A stretch of 64,000 nucleotides of DNA. It comes from Bacteroidales bacterium (GTDB taxonomy: Bacteria; Bacteroidota; Bacteroidia; Bacteroidales; TTA-H9). Below the pieces are notes generated by a model that ran no database searches, was not told where the DNA came from, and saw only the letters and a list, made by a program, of their open reading frames with translations. The stretch covers positions 1-64,000 of the forward strand of contig JAUSOY010000038.1 of assembly GCA_030656615.1 (NCBI GenBank), read 5' to 3'. A program made the position numbers and the translations under genes. This document shows, piece after piece, positions 4,755-49,586 of the stretch. Position 1 is the stretch's first letter. Every line of letters starts with the position of its first letter.

Positions 4755-7700
4755 TTATACGGCTCTGCCATAGAATTCATTCATATATTCGTTTATCACC
4801 AGATTGTTAATATACTTTGATGATTCCGCGTTTAAATTTATATGGTTTTTGTTTTTGAATTGCTCAATAACCAAACGCATCATTTGTGAAGTGAAATAGC
4901 TTTCGTTCTCTAACAACCTTGTGTTTTGCAGAACCTGCAAATCAGCATCTTGCTTTACACTTTTTAATGCTTCAAAAATCACACTTTCCTTTTGTGACAA
5001 TGTGCCTTTTTCAACCAATCGTTTGTGGATTCGGGCATATTTCGGGTCGCTGTTGTATTTGTCTTTCAGTAAATTATTTTGGCGGTTGAGTTCCTTTATT
5101 TTCTCGTAAATCTTGGTCAATGCACCAATGTTTTGCTTCATTTCGTCCTGTGTAATCTCATCCAGATTTTTCTTATCGAAAAGGCGTTTCAACTCTTCGT
5201 ACAACGAAACAAATTCAGGGTCTTTTTTATCAAAGTTACTTGCCAGGGTTTCCCGGGTTTTCCGCAAAGTGTCTTTTAATTCGTCGGCTAAAATCAGTTC
5301 TTCTTCCGATATTTTGGTAAAGTGAAACAGCACATCTTCCAAAGCAACATTCAACAGATTAGTATTGTCGATGTTGTTTTTTAACGCTTCCTGTGTATTG
5401 AGCAGGGCTAAATGGTTTTCGGTTTCGCGGTAAAGTTGTGCCAGCTTTTTAAAGTCAATTTTGTCGAGCAAATCAAAATGACCGAATAAACGGATTAGAT
5501 TGTATAAACTCTTTGCATTGCCCAAAACCTTTTTAATGAGCAATACTTTTTCACGGTCTTGAATTTGGGTTATTTGTTGTGAGAATAGTTCGGCGTTGGT
5601 CGTGTCGAAATAAAATAAGACATCCTTGATTTCAGCAATTTCCTGTTCAATTTCTTCTTTCGATTTAAACAAGTCAGAGTAAAACTCCATTTCATCGCCC
5701 AATTCGGCTTGCAATTCATCGAAATAGGCTTTGTTGGTTGCGTCAAATTCAGCCCGAATGTCGGCAAAATCAACCACATAGCCATATTTGAAATTCTTAT
5801 AGGTGCGATTAACTCGTGTAAGTGTTTGTAAAAGGTTGTGCCTTTTTATAACTCGCCCGATGTATAATTTCTTTAATCGTTTGGCATCAAAGCCAGTTAA
5901 AAGCATGTTGTAAACAAACAGAAAATCAATTTCTCCCTCTTTGAAATCTTCAACTAAATCCTTGCGTTCTTGCGGAGAGCCAATATCGTGAAGAATTAAA
6001 GCAGCCGTTTTTACTTTATGACTGTGTTTCAATTTGGCTTTATATTTCCCTTTGGGTTCTGCGGCTTGTTGCCACTCTTCTTCTTGTTCCGGTTTCAGCG
6101 CGTATTTTTCGTTGAAAATCCGAAACATCTCTTTTGCCTGGTCGGAGCTATCGCAAACCACCATTCCACCAATGGAACTATCTGAAAAAGTCAAACGGCT
6201 TTTTTCAAAGTCGTTTACGATATAATCGAGCATTGGCTCAACAAAATTTGTATGAGCAAAAACTTTTTGTCTTTCAATGTCGCCTTTTAAAATCTTAATT
6301 TTATCCAATGCATCTTTCAGCACAAATTTATAATCGCTTTCAATTTCTTCTCTGATTAACCTAAGCGTGTAACCATCGGCTATTGAAGCATTGTAATAAT
6401 ATTTGTGAATGTAATTGCCAAATAAATCTTTCGAATAATAATCCTTTGTAATGAGTGGTGTACCTGTTAAACCGATTTTTATTGAGTTGGTATCAGATTG
6501 CGTAAGATTTGCCAAAAAGCTGCCTTGTGGGTTGTAACTGCGGTGGACTTCATCTAAAAAGTAAATCCGTTGAATATTGATGTCGTAATCTTGTTTTTGT
6601 GTTACATTGGCTTCTTCGCTGAACTTTTGAATGTTCACAACCGTAATTTCAGCCCTACCCGAATTGTTGTGTATGGCAGTTGTGGTTTTAATTGACTTTA
6701 CAAAATCCGCTTTTGAATCGACAATGTGAACAATCAAGCCACGAGCTGTAAATTCTCGTTTTGCCTGAATAAGCAAATCTAAACGGTCAACAATAAAATA
6801 GAATTTTGGAATTACTTTTTTCTTTTGGAAATAATCTGTTAGGTAGCGAACATTGTAAAATGCCAAAGCGGTTTTACCGCTTCCTTGTGTGTGCCAGATA
6901 ATTCCTTTTTTAATTCCGCTTTCTAATTTATTTTCAATGGCTTTTGTGGCAAAGATTTGAGGGTAACGCATCACATGTTTTTCAATTCCTTTTTTCTCGT
7001 CCACATAGGCAATAGCATATTTTAAAATAAACGAAAGTCTGTCTTTTGAAAACAATGATGTAAGAATACGGTTTGTTGGCGTATTTGGGTTTTTATTTGT
7101 CAAAAACTCAGGCGAACTCTTGATAACTGCCAAATTGTTATTCTTTAAAACGAAATTTTCTAAACTGTCATCTTCAACAGCTAACAGTTTTTCCAAGTCC
7201 AATTCTTCTTCTCTGAAATAGTTAAATATCGGTTTTGTGTATGAAGGCGAAGCATAAAAAGCACCCTGTAAGGGTTCAATATCTTCGTTGTCGTACTCCA
7301 TGTTATTGGAGAAAACCATCAATTGCGTAATGTTTACAAACTTTCTGAATTTCTTGTTTTGAAATCGTTTGTTTATTCTTTCTCTTTCTGCAATTATTCC
7401 GTCTCGATTGTTTGGTTTCTTTACTTCAATAAATGCCAAAGGCATTCCATTGATTAAAAGAATTATATCGGGTCTGAATTCTTCGTCTCCGTTTTTGTAA
7501 GTCAATTCGGTTACAACGTGAAAGGTGTTGTTTTCAAAATTATCAAAGTCAATCAGTTTTACTCCTGATTCACTGGTCAATTTTTCAAAATAAGCTTTGC
7601 CTAAGTCTTCATTGCTCAGCAAAAGGGAAATGTCAACCAATAATCGTTCTGCTTGGTCTTGGTCAAAGTCAGGATTGATTCTAACAATAGATTCTATGAA

Positions 7701-7826
7701 TATTTCCCTGAAAATATTTGTTTCTGTATCCCAAACCGCATTATTCAGCGAAATATATTTATAACCAAGTCTGTATAAATGCAGAATGGCAGGAATTTTC
7801 ACTCTTGAATCCTCGTTAAATTTCAT
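4755..7826 (-). CDS. hsdR: Type I restriction enzyme endonuclease/translocase HsdR
   Basis: The motor and nuclease subunit of the type I system, 1023 aa. The N-terminal PD-(D/E)xK nuclease shows RPD (118-120) and IEVKKP (EVKK at 134-137). The superfamily 2 translocase follows, with Walker A HTQGSGKTA (312-320), DEVH box (425-428) and GLTGTPL. The C-terminal half carries the second RecA-like domain (LLTGFDAKRLKKLYIGR, LLQTLTRVNRTYKNFKYGYVVDF) and a long helical region that contacts HsdM. All catalytic motifs are intact, so restriction should be functional provided hsdS works. It is the first gene of the operon; I saw no convincing TAnnTTTG promoter immediately upstream. Confidence 0.96.
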   Translation of the reverse strand: MKFNEDSRVKIPAILHLYRLGYKYISLNNAVWDTETNIFREIFIESIVRINPDFDQDQAERLLVDISLLLSNEDLGKAYFEKLTSESGVKLIDFDNFENNTFHVVTELTYKNGDEEFRPDIILLINGMPLAFIEVKKPNNRDGIIAERERINKRFQNKKFRKFVNITQLMVFSNNMEYDNEDIEPLQGAFYASPSYTKPIFNYFREEELDLEKLLAVEDDSLENFVLKNNNLAVIKSSPEFLTNKNPNTPTNRILTSLFSKDRLSFILKYAIAYVDEKKGIEKHVMRYPQIFATKAIENKLESGIKKGIIWHTQGSGKTALAFYNVRYLTDYFQKKKVIPKFYFIVDRLDLLIQAKREFTARGLIVHIVDSKADFVKSIKTTTAIHNNSGRAEITVVNIQKFSEEANVTQKQDYDINIQRIYFLDEVHRSYNPQGSFLANLTQSDTNSIKIGLTGTPLITKDYYSKDLFGNYIHKYYYNASIADGYTLRLIREEIESDYKFVLKDALDKIKILKGDIERQKVFAHTNFVEPMLDYIVNDFEKSRLTFSDSSIGGMVVCDSSDQAKEMFRIFNEKYALKPEQEEEWQQAAEPKGKYKAKLKHSHKVKTAALILHDIGSPQERKDLVEDFKEGEIDFLFVYNMLLTGFDAKRLKKLYIGRVIKRHNLLQTLTRVNRTYKNFKYGYVVDFADIRAEFDATNKAYFDELQAELGDEMEFYSDLFKSKEEIEQEIAEIKDVLFYFDTTNAELFSQQITQIQDREKVLLIKKVLGNAKSLYNLIRLFGHFDLLDKIDFKKLAQLYRETENHLALLNTQEALKNNIDNTNLLNVALEDVLFHFTKISEEELILADELKDTLRKTRETLASNFDKKDPEFVSLYEELKRLFDKKNLDEITQDEMKQNIGALTKIYEKIKELNRQNNLLKDKYNSDPKYARIHKRLVEKGTLSQKESVIFEALKSVKQDADLQVLQNTRLLENESYFTSQMMRLVIEQFKNKNHINLNAESSKYINNLVINEYMNEFYGRAV

Positions 7827-7976
7827 GTGTAATAAATTGATTTTTAATGGTCACATGGAACTCGCCAATTAAGGTTTTTTTTAAAATTTTGACTTTTCCT
7901 TATGGCTCGTTTCATATCTCATTGTCCAAAATTTATAGTCCGAAAGATACTCAATTTCCTGCGGTGCGTCAGCAAG

Positions 7977-8052
7977 AAAACTGCTCTTTTGCAAGCTGAA
8001 GCATCGGCTTGTTTATCGGAGCTTGTCCCGAAAGTTTTCGGGATGCAGTTTT
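7977..8052. repeat. Structured palindromic element
   Basis: Outer arms AAAACTGC (7977-7984) and GCAGTTTT (8045-8052) enclose an inner perfect hairpin TCCCGAAA-GT-TTTCGGGA (8026-8043) and a CAAGC...GCTTG pair. The nested layout could fold into a cruciform or branched RNA. It resembles a repeat I have seen in other Bacteroidota genomes; its copy number here cannot be tested within one window. Confidence 0.5.
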
Positions 8053-8357
8053 GTGCATTGGCTGTTCATTATTTCGTTTTCTTTTTTTCTGTCTTTAAGT
8101 AGCAAATTGTCCGCTGTGTCGTTGTCTTTTTACACTGACGGCTAACGTGTGAACAACCCCAATTGCATTTATATCCACCATAGAAAACTGTGGATAAAAT
8201 CTTCCTGAAAAACCAAAATCCGGTGTTGAAGGTGTTTTCATGTGGGGCTTACCTGACTGTGATTGAGGGTTTTTGTTCCTTTGTAACAAAAATATTATAA
8301 AACCTTAAGTATACAAAATATCTGTTCAGATATTTCGATGCGTTTCTATGAAAAACC

Positions 8358-8392
8358 AAAGGCCGCTCACCCAATGGTAAACGGCCTTTTTT
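8358..8392 (-). terminator. Terminator downstream of trxB (possibly bidirectional)
   Basis: AAGGCCG (8359-8365) pairs with CGGCCTT (8382-8388) around a 16-nt loop. On the minus strand the stem is followed by TGGTTTTTC; on the plus strand by a T-run. It lies about 175 bp beyond the trxB stop. Confidence 0.65.
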
Positions 8393-8566
8393 CTCATAAT
8401 TTTTAAAACGTTATCGTTGGCTGTTCAACGAATATTCCGGAGAGTAATTCGTGCTAGTGCCCGAATGCTTGGATAGCCAAATAACTTACTTAAGCAGTAA
8501 TATCAATCAATGCCCATTCCTATTTATTAAACAATACACAAATAATCAATAAGCTCAGCTTACTCT

Positions 8567-9514
8567 TTAGGAAGCAAGGTAGCGTTCGGCTTCAATGGCT
8601 GCCATACAACCGGTGCCGGCAGCGGTAATGGCCTGACGGTAATGATGATCCTGAACATCGCCGGCAGCAAAAACGCCTTCCACATTGGTGGCTGTTTTGC
8701 CGGGTTCAGTGATAATGTATCCATTTTCATCCAAATTTACCTGGCCTTTGAAAATTTGTGCATTAGGACTATGTCCGATTGCTACGAAAAATCCTTCCAC
8801 ATCAAGCTTGCGGATTTCACCGGTTTTAAGATTTTCGATGATGGCTCCATTAACCGCTTTCATAAATCCTTGCTTTTCGCCAACAATTTCTTTGGTAGTC
8901 GAATCCCATATTACTTCAATATTGGGAGTATCAAAAACTTTATTTTGCATGGCTTTGGAAGCACGCAATTCATCACGACGGTGAATAAGGTAAACCTTAC
9001 GCGCCAGTTTGGCGAGATATGTAGCCTCTTCGCAGGCTGTATCTCCTCCACCAACAATGGCTACATCTTTTCCGCGATAAAAATATCCATCACAGGTTGC
9101 ACAGGCCGAAACGCCGGCACCCATAAATTCCTGTTCCGATTCCAGACCAAGCCATCTGGCAGATGCTCCGGTAGCAATAATTACCGAGTCTGCCATAATG
9201 GTTTTACCATCATCGGCTAAGGCTTTAAAAGGCTTTTGAGAAAAATCGACTTCGGTGATATTACCCCAACGAACATCGGCATCGAAACGTTGTGCTTGTT
9301 TTTTCAAATCTTCCATCATTTCAGGACCTTTGATGCCTTCCGGATAACCAGGGAAATTATCCACTTCGGTGGTTATTGTAAGCTGACCACCGGGTTGCAT
9401 TCCTTCATAAACAATGGGTTTCAGATCGGCACGTCCTGCATAAATGGCGGCGGTGTACCCGGCGGGCCCTGAACCGATAATCAGACAGCGGGTTTTTTCA
9501 ATATTTTCACTCAT
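8567..9514 (-). CDS. trxB: Thioredoxin-disulfide reductase TrxB
   Basis: A flavoprotein that uses NADPH to reduce thioredoxin in the cytoplasm. Its 315 aa are the normal length. It begins with the FAD-binding GSGPAGYTAAIYAGRA (about 14-29), has the redox-active CATCDG (CxxC) in the middle of the protein, the NADPH-binding GGGDTACEEATYLA, and the C-terminal FAD motif GVFAAGDVQDHHYRQAITAAGTGCMAA. ATG at 9514 places the first strand correctly. It appears monocistronic, with a terminator well downstream and a divergent T9SS gene upstream. Confidence 0.98.
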   Translation of the reverse strand: MSENIEKTRCLIIGSGPAGYTAAIYAGRADLKPIVYEGMQPGGQLTITTEVDNFPGYPEGIKGPEMMEDLKKQAQRFDADVRWGNITEVDFSQKPFKALADDGKTIMADSVIIATGASARWLGLESEQEFMGAGVSACATCDGYFYRGKDVAIVGGGDTACEEATYLAKLARKVYLIHRRDELRASKAMQNKVFDTPNIEVIWDSTTKEIVGEKQGFMKAVNGAIIENLKTGEIRKLDVEGFFVAIGHSPNAQIFKGQVNLDENGYIITEPGKTATNVEGVFAAGDVQDHHYRQAITAAGTGCMAAIEAERYLAS

Positions 9515-43324: not shown

Positions 43325-43903
43325 TCAATAATTTTCTGCCATTTCCTCAAAATAGGATTGCGGATGATCACAAGCCGGGCATTTTTGTGGAGCATTCTGA
43401 CTTTCATGAACAAATCCACACTTGCGGCAAACCCATTTCACTTTTTTCTCTTTTCTGAACACCTCATTTTTCTCCATATTCTGAAGTAGTTTACGATACC
43501 GACGCTCATGTTCGGCTTCCACTTTAGCAATGGCTTTAAACTTTACAGCAACAGCACTAAATCCTTCTTCACCAGCTATACGCGCGAATTCGGGATATAA
43601 GGCCGACCATTCTTCATACTCTCCATTAGCAGCCGCCTTCAAATTTTCAGCGGTAGTAGCCAGTATTCCTGCCGGATATATAGCCGTAATTTCAACATCA
43701 CCACCTTCTAAAAATTTAAAAAATTGCTTGGCGTGCGTTTCTTCCTGAAGGGCTGTTTCTTCAAAAATAGCGGCAATTTGTTCAAATCCATCCTTGCGGG
43801 CAATTTTAGCAAAAAAGGTATATCTGTTTTTTGCCTGCGATTCACCGGCAAAGGCTTTCAAAAGATTTTTTTCGGTTTGTGTTCCCTTTATCGACTTTTC
43901 CAT
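43325..43903 (-). CDS. rbr: Rubrerythrin
   Basis: A 192-aa cytoplasmic peroxide reductase, full length. The N-terminal four-helix ferritin-like domain carries the di-iron ligands in AFAGESQAKNRY, EETALQEETHAKQF and AKVEAEHERRY. The C-terminal rubredoxin-like domain has CRKC and CPAC (VCRKCGFVHESQNAPQKCPACDHP). Electrons could come from the rubredoxin at 22.1 kb. It starts 17 bp after the stop of butyrate kinase 1 on the same strand, so it may be co-transcribed with fermentation genes, in keeping with an oxygen-sensitive metabolism. Confidence 0.97.
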   Translation of the reverse strand: MEKSIKGTQTEKNLLKAFAGESQAKNRYTFFAKIARKDGFEQIAAIFEETALQEETHAKQFFKFLEGGDVEITAIYPAGILATTAENLKAAANGEYEEWSALYPEFARIAGEEGFSAVAVKFKAIAKVEAEHERRYRKLLQNMEKNEVFRKEKKVKWVCRKCGFVHESQNAPQKCPACDHPQSYFEEMAENY

Positions 43904-43920: not shown

Positions 43921-45000
43921 TTAAGGTTGATATTCAATGATTTTTGCAGTTCCTTTTAAAACATTTAATCCATTAGCTGCCAAGGCACGCATTTCATCCT
44001 CACCCGGATACACCTTTACAGGACCCAGCTTCCCGATTCTTTCGGCTATCATTTTGGTAAATACATGGCTATATGCCAGACCACCTGTAAGAATAATGGC
44101 ATCAACTTCTCCTTTTAAAACAGTAAACATGGCACCAATTTCTTTCGAAATCTGATAGGCCATTGCCGTATAAATTAAGGTGGCTTTCGGCTCGTTGTTC
44201 AGGAATCCCTCTTCTACAGCACGAGCATCACTGGTGTTGAGATATGCCACCATTCCGCCTTTACCGGTTAACATTTTTAGGATTTCCTGTTCCGTATACT
44301 TTTCACTAAAACAAAGACGAACAAGATCTCCTGCAGGAATAGTTCCACTGCGTTCCGGTGTAAAAGGCCCATCTCCGTCAAGACCATTGTTGGTATCAAC
44401 AACTCGTCCTTTGCGATGCGCACCTACGGTTATACCTCCACCCATATGGGCAATAATCAAATTTAATTCTTCGTAAGTAGTGCTGATTGATGATGCGTAT
44501 TGCCTGGCAACCGCTTTATGATTGAGAGGATGGTACAATGATTTACGTTCGAAAAGTGGATGTCCTGAAATCCGGGCCAACGCATCAAATTCATCAGCAG
44601 CTACCGGGTCAGCAATATATGCTTTTGCACTTCCAAATGAATCGGCAAAAGCCGCTGCAAGCAATCCACCCAAATTACTGGCGTGTTCACCAACCGGGCT
44701 ATCCCTTAGATCAGCTTTCAAGGCTTCATTAACAAGCAATACACCTGATTCAACCGGCCTGATTAAACCGCCTCTGCCCATCACAATAGCAATATCCTCT
44801 GCATTGATTCCAGAATCCTTCATTTTATCCGAAATGCTTTTATAGCGATAATCGAATTGAGAATATATTGAAGGGAAAGCATTTATTTCCTCAGGCGAAT
44901 GGGATATTGAGGCCATCCAAACCTGTTTATCCTGCTCAAATACAGCAATTTTAGTAGAAGTAGATCCGGGATTTATTACAAATATCAGCGACTTTGCCAT
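43921..45000 (-). CDS. buk: Butyrate kinase (intact copy)
   Basis: A 359-aa ASKHA-fold kinase that makes ATP from butyryl (or isobutyryl) phosphate and ADP. The phosphate-1 loop is canonical (FVINPGSTSTKIAVF, about 8-22), and phosphate-2 is also intact (IIAHMGGGITVGAHR). GPFTPERSGTIPAGDLVRLCFS carries the conserved Arg, and the adenosine motif is AIILTGGLAYS. Its length is that of the family. A second copy lies directly upstream with a hairpin between. No phosphate butyryltransferase gene is in the window. Confidence 0.95.
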   Translation of the reverse strand: MAKSLIFVINPGSTSTKIAVFEQDKQVWMASISHSPEEINAFPSIYSQFDYRYKSISDKMKDSGINAEDIAIVMGRGGLIRPVESGVLLVNEALKADLRDSPVGEHASNLGGLLAAAFADSFGSAKAYIADPVAADEFDALARISGHPLFERKSLYHPLNHKAVARQYASSISTTYEELNLIIAHMGGGITVGAHRKGRVVDTNNGLDGDGPFTPERSGTIPAGDLVRLCFSEKYTEQEILKMLTGKGGMVAYLNTSDARAVEEGFLNNEPKATLIYTAMAYQISKEIGAMFTVLKGEVDAIILTGGLAYSHVFTKMIAERIGKLGPVKVYPGEDEMRALAANGLNVLKGTAKIIEYQP

Positions 45001-45025
45001 ATATAAATTTTGTTGTATAAAAATA

Positions 45026-45033
45026 CAAAATTA
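45026..45033 (-). promoter_or_regulatory. Candidate -7 box of the intact butyrate kinase gene
   Basis: CAAAATTA on plus reads TAATTTTG on minus and fits TAnnTTTG 26 bp before the ATG at 45000. The upstream box is poor. Together with the hairpin just beyond, it suggests this gene can be expressed separately from icmF. Confidence 0.4.
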
Positions 45034-45061
45034 CTAGCAATATCAAAGCAATAAAATAGAA

Positions 45062-45087
45062 AGCACCGGGCAATAGTACCCGGTGCT
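45062..45087 (-). terminator. Hairpin between the two butyrate kinase genes
   Basis: AGCACCGGG and CCCGGTGCT form a 9-bp perfect stem with an 8-nt loop, followed on minus by TTCTATTTT. It could be a terminator or partial attenuator between the paralogues. Confidence 0.6.
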
Positions 45088-45104
45088 AATAAAAATTTCT
45101 GTTA

Positions 45105-46199
45105 TTAGATGTATTCCAAAACTTCTTTGCTGCCTCTTAAAACAGCGAGCACATTCATTGCCAGTGATTCCATTTCATCACCGCCGGGATATACAATAAC
45201 AGGAGCTAGTTTATTAACTCTTTCAATAATATAATTAACAAACCGGGCACTGTTGGCTATGCCTCCCGTAAGAATAATCGCATCAACTTCACCCATAAGA
45301 ACAGGGTACATAGAAGCTATTTCCTTAGCAACATTGTAAGCCATGGCTTCAAAAACCAGCCGGGCTTTCTCATCTCTGTCTTCATATGCTCGCTTTTCAA
45401 TCAATGCGACATCTTCTGTACCCAGCCATGCCTTTAATCCACCTTCACCCATAACCATTTTAACAACCTCGTCTTTGGTGTATTTTCCGCTAAAACACAA
45501 CCTTAATAAATCGCCAGCCGGAATTGTTCCAGAACGTTTCGGCGAGAATGGTCCATAGCCATCAAAACCCTGATTCACATCAATTACCCGACCCTTACTA
45601 TGTGCACCCACCGTAATGCCAACACCCATATGTGCTACAATGAGGTTGAGTTCGGCATAATCTCTCAAAACACTTTTTGCGTATCGTCTGGCCATGGCTT
45701 TCTGATTCAACGCATGAAATACAGATTTTCTTGGAAACTCAGGATGCCCTCCAATACGGGCAACATCGGCCAATTCATCTACAACAATAGGATCGGCAAT
45801 ATACGCTTTTGCATTAGGAAGACTCTGAGCCAGATCATCTGCCAGTAAAGCACCCAAATTAACGGTATCTTCTCCGGAGGGGTTATGAAGCAAATCGTAC
45901 TTCATTTTCTCATTCACGAGATAAACACCGGATTGTAAGGGTTTCACCAGACCACCCCGACCAACAACCGCTGTTATTTTATCCAGATCAATATCAGCAT
46001 TCGCCATCTCGCGCAATATCGCTTCCTTGCGTATATCGAACTGATCATTGATATGGCTTAGCCCTTGGAAAGCCTCCAGATTATGATCAATCTTACGGAG
46101 ATATACCAGCTTATTATCATCATAAACGGCCATTTTCGTAAACAGGCTCCGTGGATTCACCACGAGGATGCGTTCTGTAAATCTTGTTTCGTAATCCAT
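45105..46199 (-). CDS. Butyrate kinase paralogue with altered phosphate loops
   Basis: A 364-aa protein plainly homologous to butyrate kinase along its whole length (VVGRGGLVKPLQSGVYLVN, KAYIADPIVVDELADVARIGGHPEFPRKSVFHALNQKAMAR, GPFSPKRSGTIPAGDLLRLCFS, AIILTGGIANS). However, the phosphate-1 loop is NPRSLFTK instead of NPGSTSTK, and phosphate-2 is HMGVGITVGAH instead of HMGGGITVGAH. Loss of the small Gly/Ser/Thr residues should hinder phosphate binding, so it may be a regulatory or structural partner of the intact copy, or act on another substrate. It starts 30 bp after icmF on the same strand. Confidence 0.9.
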   Translation of the reverse strand: MDYETRFTERILVVNPRSLFTKMAVYDDNKLVYLRKIDHNLEAFQGLSHINDQFDIRKEAILREMANADIDLDKITAVVGRGGLVKPLQSGVYLVNEKMKYDLLHNPSGEDTVNLGALLADDLAQSLPNAKAYIADPIVVDELADVARIGGHPEFPRKSVFHALNQKAMARRYAKSVLRDYAELNLIVAHMGVGITVGAHSKGRVIDVNQGFDGYGPFSPKRSGTIPAGDLLRLCFSGKYTKDEVVKMVMGEGGLKAWLGTEDVALIEKRAYEDRDEKARLVFEAMAYNVAKEIASMYPVLMGEVDAIILTGGIANSARFVNYIIERVNKLAPVIVYPGGDEMESLAMNVLAVLRGSKEVLEYI

Positions 46200-46229: not shown

Positions 46230-49200
46230 TTATAAATTTCTTCTGTATTTTCCTCCACTGTGGAATAAAGCATCCGTTATGCTTCCCAATGAAGCAAATT
46301 TACAAACTTCCATCAGGCATTCAAAGGTATTTCCACTCATAAGGGCAACATCATTTAAGCGCTTTAGTTCAACGGTTGCCTCCGTTTCCCATGCTTTTTG
46401 ATAACGCTGCAGGTTAGCTATCTGATTTTCCTTTTCCTCATTCGTGGCCCGGATAACTTCACCCGGTAAAACGGTTGGTGAGCCCGCAGAAGACAAAAAG
46501 GTATTGACACCAATAATTGGATATTCACCCGTATGCTTTAATGTTTCGTAATACAATGACTCTTCCTGAATTTTTCCTCGCTGATAATTAGTTTCCATAG
46601 CACCCAAAACACCGCCCCTGCTGGTAATTCTATCAAATTCACTTAATACCGCTTCTTCAACCAACCTGGTCAATTCTTCGATGATAAATGAGCCCTGCAA
46701 TGGGTTTTGGTTTTTTGCCAAACCTAATTCCCGATTGATAATCAACTGAATAGCGATGGCTCTTCGAACCGACTCTTCGGTAGGAGTCGTAATCGCTTCA
46801 TCATAAGCATTGGTATGCAGCGAATTACAATTATCATAAATAGCATATAATGCCTGCAATGTGGTTCTGATATCATTAAAATCAATTTCCTGTGCATGCA
46901 ACGAACGACCTGAGGTTTGAATGTGATACTTGAGTTTTTGAGAACGTTCGTTTGCAGAATACCGGATTTTCATAGCCTTTGACCATATCAAACGAGCTAC
47001 TCTTCCCATAACAGAAAATTCCGGATCGATTCCATTCGAGAAGAAAAATGAAAAATTGGGCGCAAAATCATCAATATTCATCCCTCGGGACAGGTAATAT
47101 TCAACAAAAGTAAATCCATTAGCCAGAGTAAACGCCAGTTGTGATATAGGATTTGCTCCCGCTTCGGCAATATGATAACCGGAAATTGATACCGAATAAA
47201 AATTATTTATCTGTTGATTATTGAAATACTCTTGCATATCGCCCATCATTTTCAAAGAAAAATCGGTAGAAAATATGCACGTATTCTGAGCCTGATCCTC
47301 TTTAAGAATATCGGCCTGCACCGTACCACGAACACGGCATAATGTATCCGCCTTAATTTTTTGATATACGTCAGCTGGCAATACCTGGTCACCAGTAACA
47401 CCCAGAAGCATCAAACCCAGTCCATTATTTCCATTGGGAAGTTCTCCCTGGTAATGAGGGACTTTTTGTCCGTGATCTTTATATATTTTCTGAATTTTGT
47501 ACTGAACGTCTGCTTCGAGTCCATTCTGAATAATATATTTCTCACATTGCTGATCGATGGCCGCATTCATAAAAAAGGCAGTCATGGCAGGTGCTGGTCC
47601 GTTGATGGTCATAGAAACCGATGTCTTTGGATCGGCTAAATCAAATCCTGAATATAACTTTTTAATGTCGTCAAGGGTACAAATTGAAACACCTGAATTA
47701 CCAACTTTGCCATAGATATCAGGGCGCTGATGAGGATCGCGGCCATAGAGTGTTACTGAGTCAAAGGCCGTGGACAGCCGTATGGCTGGCATACCTTCTG
47801 ACAAATAGTGAAAACGTTTATTGGTGCGCTCCGGGCCACCTTCTCCGGCAAACATTCGCGTAGGGTCTTCTTCTTCCCGTTTAAAAGGGAAAACACCAGC
47901 AGCAAATGGAAACTCACCAGGGAAATTTTCGAGAAGATTCCATTTCAGAATATCAGCCCAGCCATTATACGTGGGGACTGCCACTTTCGGTATCTGAAGA
48001 TGTGCCAGCGATTCAGTATGTGTGTCCACTTCAATAGCCTTATTACGCACATGATAAACAAATACTTTATCGCGGTAACTTTGGACTCGATCGGGCCAGT
48101 TTTTTAACAAACCGAGATATTCCTGACCCAGTTTATGTTCCAATTCTTCCTTTAATGACTTAATGGTGATATCATCAGAACCTGTTTTTTTGAGAATCAA
48201 TTCCGCTGTTTCCATAACAGATTGAAGCTGCTGAGCCAGTAAAGCATTTTTTAAGGCATCCGCATTGTATTTGCGAACTGTTTCAGATATTTCTGATAAG
48301 TATCTAACCCTTTGTGGAGGGATAATTTGCAGTTGCTTTCCAGTATCCATCTTTAAAAACTCCACCGAATCGAAAATATCCGGAAAGGATTCTGAAACTC
48401 TATTCATCACGGCCTTAAAAAGCATATTAACCCCATTATCGTTAAACTGCGAAGCAATGGTTGGGAAAACAGGCATATCCGTTGTATCCTTATCAAAAGC
48501 AGTGCGATTGCGCTGCATTTGCTTACGCACATCACGTAGCGCATCTTCGGCTCCGCGTTTGTCTGATTTATTTAATGCCACAAAATCAGCAAAATCGAGC
48601 ATATCAATTTTCTCAAGCTGAGAAGGCGCTCCGTATTCAGGCGTCATTACATAGAGCGAATGATTACAAAAATCAACGATTCCTGTGTCACTCTGTCCAA
48701 TTCCACTGGATTCGAGAATAATAAGATCGAAACCGGCATTTTTAACGATGCATAGTGCTTCACGGATGTGCTTCGATAATGAAACATTGGCCTGCCGGGT
48801 TGCCAACGAGCGCATATAAACCCGCGAATCGTAAACGGAATTCATGCGGATTCGATCTCCAAGTAAAGCTCCACCGGACTTCCTGCGGGAAGGATCGACT
48901 GAAAGAATCGCAATTTTTTTGGATGGGTAAAAATCGAGAAAACGCCGAATCAATTCATCAATCAGCGAAGACTTACCGGCTCCACCGGTTCCTGTAATAC
49001 CTAAAACTGGCGTTGTTATACTTTCACAATGATCCAGACAATATTGCAATGATTCTTTGACTTCTAAAGGAAAATTCTCGGCCGCTGAAATAAAACGGGC
49101 CAACTCATTTATCTCTCCTCTTTTAAGCCGGTCCAAATCCGGTTTAACATCCTTACCAGCCGGAAAATCACTGCGTGTAAGTACATCATCAATCATTCCC

Positions 49201-49586
49201 TGCAAACCTAAATGTCTTCCATCATCGGGTGAATAAATTCGTTCGATCCCATAGGATTGTAGTTCGGCAATCTCATCAGGCAGAATAACCCCACCGCCGC
49301 CACCAAAAATCCGTATATGTCCGCACCCGGCCTCATGCAATAAATCATGCATATACTTAAAAAACTCCATGTGCCCGCCCTGATACGAAGTAACCGCAAT
49401 GGCCTGAACATCTTCCTGAATGGCACAATCAACAATTTCTCCAACCGAACGATCGTGACCGAGGTGAATCACTTCTGCACCGGTAGCTTGTAGAATCCGG
49501 CGCATAATATTGATGGAAGCATCATGTCCGTCGAATAGAGAAGCAGCTGTAACAATCCGGATATGATTTTCGGGTTTATAAGACAT
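46230..49586 (-). CDS. icmF: Fused isobutyryl-CoA mutase IcmF
   Basis: A 1118-aa fusion of all parts of an adenosylcobalamin acyl-CoA mutase: B12-binding domain (about 1-145, with [21 protein letters not shown] and the cobalt-ligating His), MeaB-like GTPase chaperone (about 190-410, Walker [25 protein letters not shown]), a linker, and the substrate-binding TIM barrel (about 560-1100; [48 protein letters not shown]). It interconverts isobutyryl-CoA and n-butyryl-CoA (some members also accept isovaleryl/pivalyl-CoA). Length fits. It is the first gene of the run leading to the butyrate kinases and rubrerythrin. Confidence 0.95.

Follow-up and report, generated by a model that had tools for sequence, protein, structure and literature searches.

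The window (the whole stretch of DNA analysed, 64,000 nucleotides of a Bacteroidales contig) carries two adjacent genes for homologues of butyrate kinase (Buk), one with altered phosphate loops, which raises the question of whether the altered copy is still a kinase and, if not, which role it may have. We compared its residues, phylogeny, predicted structure and gene neighbourhood with those of intact (canonical) Buk genes.

Locus structure and altered sites in bukX

On the minus strand, icmF is followed by the altered gene (hereafter, bukX), the intact buk and a rubrerythrin gene (Table 1). The tandem described in the initial annotation, with altered loops in the upstream copy, was recovered as two open reading frames at the same positions, and bukX retains its conserved regions (RSGTIPAG and LTGGIA are both present). 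The icmF product scores 1725 bits against the NCBIfam equivalog NF045497 (cut-off 1500) and contains MM_CoA_mutase, MeaB, and B12-binding domains. Several genomes of the window's family have a rubrerythrin gene next after bukX or after buk. The same genome contains a third buk, which is canonical and located on another contig (C88), and two acetate kinase genes on contig C14. In the C88 locus (5726-8681), two adjacent ptb-like genes of 301 and 312 aa precede the canonical buk; both score under the ptb equivalog cut-offs, and the second is perhaps a diverged paralogue too.

Table 1 Features of the icmF-bukX-buk region (window coordinates; clade, the 51 altered Buk sequences; canonical, 93 intact Buk sequences)
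Feature	Position	Strand	Remarks
icmF, fused isobutyryl-CoA mutase / G-protein chaperone	46230-49586	-	1118 aa; adjoins bukX upstream
bukX, altered Buk paralogue	45105-46199	-	364 aa open reading frame
bukX phosphate-1 loop NPRSLFTK (canonical NPGSTSTK)	46134-46157, residues 15-22	-	G17 in 0/51 clade members and 100% of 93 canonical sequences
bukX GEDTVN (canonical GEHASN)	45858-45875, residues 109-114	-	in the clade, H111 to D in 26/51; S113 in 0/51
bukX phosphate-2 loop HMGVG (canonical H[ML]GGG)	45618-45632, residues 190-194	-	clade retains G193 in 32%
Terminator-like hairpin between bukX and buk	45062-45087	-	11-pair stem with a 4-base loop, then a T-rich tail
Possible Bacteroidota -7 box TAATTTTG before buk	45026-45033	-	candidate only; motif not above chance
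buk, canonical butyrate kinase	43921-45000	-	359 aa; NPGSTSTK and HMGGG intact; acyl-site motif YHPLNHK (usual FHALNQK)
Rubrerythrin gene, end of run	43325-43903	-	NCBIfam NF045767

Beyond the two loops, we found changes at canonical-invariant sites that the initial annotation had not listed (H111D and S113V, which turn GEHASN into GEDTVN, and E221K). In total, bukX departs from 10/64 canonical-invariant sites vs 1/64 for the downstream buk. The window gene is a mild member of its group, retaining Asn15, Ser18, Lys22, Asp141, and Glu342. It also has the catalytic/acyl residues R81, D141, H162, and R222, the equivalents of AckA R91, D148, H180, and R241.

The family assignment of bukX is clear. 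It scores 453.5 bits against the butyrate kinase model TIGR02707 (cut-off 289.1), and even a far clade member (L204) reaches 422 bits. The AlphaFold model of bukX (mean pLDDT 85) has butyrate kinases as its best PDB matches (9a71, a BUK model, and Thermotoga maritima Buk2; TM-score 0.83-0.87), and its structural alignment with T. maritima Buk2 shows 45% identity; the support given by this prediction is for the fold only. In fold, length, identity, and R81/D141/H162/R222, bukX thus resembles butyrate kinase (TIGR02707 / PF00871; T. maritima Buk2, PDB 1SAZ, 1X9J), from which it differs in its destroyed phosphate-1 and phosphate-2 loops, its changed GEHASN, and its placement behind icmF instead of ptb. 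Neither the NPGSTSTK nor the HxGGG loop of a butyrate kinase is present in bukX, and linkage of bukX to ptb was not found, its neighbour being icmF and the ptb-linked copy being the canonical buk on C88.

A clade with an altered nucleotide site

A tree built from 158 Buk sequences unites the altered ones (at least 51) in one clade (SH-aLRT 97) that covers 24 families of the order. The clade is nested among canonical Buk sequences of the order and contains no canonical copy. With the loop columns removed, the identical clade was recovered (SH-aLRT 96), which rules out an artefact of these columns. Sequences outside the clade that the motif filter had set aside were minor canonical variants (DPGSTSTK, NPGSTSTN) and one gene, L265_c4 (genome G034), which is a separately degenerate Buk (KTVSKTTK) near IcmF.

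Relatives from the window's family (G001-G004, G008) carry NPRTCFTK and, at the second loop, H[ML]GVG or a sequence close to it. A DNA pattern that combines the NPR loop and the GxDxVN change matched 15/393 genomes of the order (10 genera, 7 families). The NPR loop is too narrow as a defining signature, given that the IcmF survey described below revealed loops of the YP, KP, and NPK types within that clade. Phosphate-1 loop forms include VNPRSLFTK, VNPKDQETQ, VYPAIESTY, IYPETVSTQ, VYPEERSTF, LKPEFYVTK, and IHPLTHSTK. The clade has two halves: His111 is replaced by Asp in the NPR/NPK half, and the YP half retains His111 and has lost Asn15. Outside the order, Buk was found in 1/40 genomes of the class (G562), which has an IcmF-bukX pair (NPRTTFTK, HIGIG) and a separate ptb-buk.

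Retention was scored in the 51 clade members at sites invariant in the 93 canonical sequences. It was low or partial at Asn15 (47%), Gly17 (0%), Ser18 (8%), Thr19 (0%), Ser20 (24%), Lys22 (50%), Gly193 (32%), Gly313 (35%), and Glu342 (26%), and high at acyl/catalytic and other residues (Arg81 92%, Asp141 100%, Glu142 100%, His162 100%, Arg222 96%, and Pro227 100%). Loss affected 9/14 nucleotide/metal sites vs 9/50 other invariant sites (Fisher p = 0.0016), with site classes that are our own choice, based on the residue roles given in PMC3475010 and on Methanosarcina thermophila AckA. The proposal that loss is selective at phosphate-contacting sites is therefore borne out across the clade. Position 17 is occupied by R, K, E, A, Q, or L, and Asn15 is replaced by Tyr in 21/51 members. 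A search for newly conserved clade sites that could mark an interface yielded just L65 and D213, both weak, the start Met aside.

For eight pairs with measurable dS, dN/dS in the bukX clade ranged from 0.016 to 0.13 (IcmF: about 0.04; a canonical Buk pair: 0.014), and no clade member has internal stops. Because the clade is conserved and dN/dS is low, the altered loops are old and the genes are under purifying selection. This excludes decay confined to this genome, one of the outcomes that would have undone the initial interpretation. The bukX clade shows the pattern expected of pseudokinases, with nucleotide-site residues selectively lost, across species and under purifying selection. Like pseudoenzymes generally, bukX combines a conserved fold and a selectively lost nucleotide site with retention of an active paralogue; unlike protein pseudokinases, it belongs to a different fold family. 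Judging from these residues, the clade has probably lost kinase activity. Automatic annotation names every member 'butyrate kinase', and counts of butyrate producers that are based on buk will be inflated thereby.

Genomic association with IcmF and canonical Buk

To survey IcmF loci, the genes were identified in 123/386 genomes of the order, flanking regions were fetched, and the next downstream gene was read. Among 121 loci, 14 stop at a contig end and 107 have a visible next gene. A Buk homologue lies directly 3′ of IcmF on the same strand in 37/107 loci, and its phosphate-1 loop is destroyed in 37/37 (canonical in none); the gaps between the two genes are mostly 16-122 bases. IcmF is present in 45 of the 51 genomes with bukX, a proportion biased upward because many genomes were found through IcmF, and in 9/15 genomes of the unbiased NPR-pattern set vs 32% across all genomes of the order. 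bukX is missing from many IcmF loci, and six bukX genomes that are 94-100% complete (G045, G323, G056, G348, G362, G378) have methylmalonyl-CoA-mutase-like matches only, ruling out IcmF as an obligate partner. There is no homology between IcmF and bukX.

Genes for acyl-CoA dehydrogenase, enoyl-CoA hydratase, 3-hydroxyacyl-CoA dehydrogenase, and thioesterase occur near bukX in several lineages, a neighbourhood that fits butyrate/isobutyrate metabolism. At several IcmF loci (L204, at 7217-7819, L214, L222, L230, L236, L245, and L249), the gene after bukX encodes about 200 aa and matches no NCBIfam model. Two loci (L039 and L197; G220) contain a very divergent, loop-intact Buk near IcmF-bukX, which falls on a long branch with Ignavibacteriota sequences.

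The suggestion that bukX pairs with an adjacent intact copy did not generalise. An intact tandem Buk follows bukX in four families only (f1: G000, the window's genome, and G004; f31: G038, G320; f49: G165, G056; f69: G076), and most genomes of the window's own family are without one, so that obligate pairing with such a neighbour is ruled out as a general rule; the recurrent neighbour is IcmF, directly upstream. The intact tandem copies tend to cluster in trees, weakly. In the window's family, those of the window and of locus L152 (5593-6702) carry YHPLNHK and not FHALNQK at the acyl site, a hint that the intact copy may prefer other acids. A second Buk is present in 49/51 bukX genomes (those fetched have canonical loops; the two genomes without one have 85% and 65% completeness), and canonical Buk was found in 15/15 genomes of the unbiased NPR-pattern set. 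Since nearly every bukX genome thus has a canonical Buk elsewhere, hetero-oligomers with some canonical Buk are still conceivable.

In the initial annotation, a hairpin and a possible second promoter were noted between bukX and buk, which may tune the ratio of the two genes. The hairpin is there (z = -5.8 vs shuffles), a good terminator-like structure that could keep transcription of buk below that of bukX. A comparable hairpin occurs in one other tandem (L232) and not in L152 or L198. The promoter is weak: a single TAnnTTTG box, whose motif is not enriched in the window above chance. The arrangement is not general among the tandems, which do not share the hairpin consistently, and a ratio tuned by hairpin and promoter was set aside.

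Possible roles of bukX

We lean, at slightly better than even, towards a reading of these alignments and gene neighbourhoods in which bukX is a ligand-binding pseudokinase that serves as a regulatory or partner subunit of the IcmF-Ptb/Buk branch. An ancient butyrate kinase duplicate would have lost the site that binds the phosphates of MgATP and kept its fold and acyl/phosphoryl pocket. Normal ATP-dependent turnover would be absent because almost every member has a bulky or charged residue in place of Gly17, and half of the clade has lost metal/phosphate ligands; ligand binding would persist because the acyl/catalytic residues, which may instead be structural, are kept; and a regulatory or partner role is suggested because canonical Buk is also kept. 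The pocket might bind a short-chain acyl phosphate, a carboxylate, or phosphate, and bukX would act in the branch that leads from IcmF (isobutyryl-CoA to butyryl-CoA) to Ptb/Buk (butyryl phosphate to butyrate and ATP), where it could form hetero-oligomers with canonical Buk or dock on IcmF. The likely partner is canonical Buk, a homologue with which it co-occurs, or IcmF, its gene neighbour, or both. A regulatory pseudokinase, if bukX is one, would imply that anaerobes of this order control butyrate/isobutyrate exchange in a way not known so far. More tentatively, bukX may be the founding case of a pseudokinase branch of the acetokinase family, a sensor of acyl phosphate or short-chain acids that would control IcmF or link it with butyrate kinase, as a regulatory layer undescribed for either enzyme; we regard this broader scheme as doubtful.

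The reactivating factors of B12-dependent diol and glycerol dehydratases are ASKHA-fold ATPases tied to a B12-dependent enzyme. bukX shares with them the ASKHA fold and a link to such an enzyme; unlike these ATPases, which belong to another ASKHA branch, it is a recent Buk paralogue with ATP-site residues lost. IcmF is described in PMC10481361 as working with a G-protein chaperone domain that is fused to it. Our literature search found no Buk-like partner of IcmF, and in the open-licence literature we found neither a gene pair of IcmF and Buk nor any pseudoenzyme among butyrate/acetate kinases described, which is weak evidence that both are new. As far as that literature shows, a regulatory pseudokinase would be the first in the acetokinase family.

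An enzyme with changed chemistry is a less probable explanation and the main rival: bukX may use another phosphoryl donor, or act as an acyl-phosphate hydrolase or transferase, without the usual MgATP pose. Throughout 51 diverged sequences, His162, Asp141, and Glu142 are invariant and Arg81 and Arg222 nearly so, which a pure scaffold would not need. The altered loop itself is constrained among sequences of the NPR branch, most of which have Arg at 17 and an aromatic residue at 20. A precedent exists in the Entamoeba acetate kinase, which uses pyrophosphate and not ATP as phosphoryl donor; its structure, PDB entry 4h0o, is among the matches of the bukX model. A changed substrate, the other option raised in the initial annotation, is also conceivable. 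However, no single new loop motif unites the clade, and the variety at positions 15 and 17 resembles release from constraint more than a single new mode of binding. In addition, Arg222 is missing in one family (f112) and Arg81 in another (f75).

That bukX is an active butyrate or isobutyrate kinase that tolerates its loop changes seems improbable. Its identity to T. maritima Buk2, its score above the NCBIfam butyrate kinase cut-off, and the IcmF context, which suits such an enzyme, are in keeping with activity, and the window copy retains Asn15, Ser18, Lys22, Glu342, and all catalytic residues, Asp141 among them, so that weak kinase activity is conceivable there. Against this, Gly17 is present in 93/93 canonical sequences and in none of the clade, IcmF-linked orthologues at the same place also lack Asn15 and Lys22, and the genomes retain canonical Buk besides. 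A relaxed or decaying duplicate without function would suit loops that differ between families and a patchy distribution, and is very hard to reconcile with the low dN/dS, the intact reading frames, a single clade in 24 families, and retention beside IcmF.

The clade also offers a clean series of natural replacements, of Gly by Arg, Lys, Glu, or Ala and of Asn by Tyr, with which the requirements of the ASKHA phosphate loop can be tested. Separately, in a Bacillota genome (L067, 5984-7114), a Buk that degenerated independently (VYPEAACTK, YLSTE) immediately precedes an intact one, possibly a second origin of the same arrangement.
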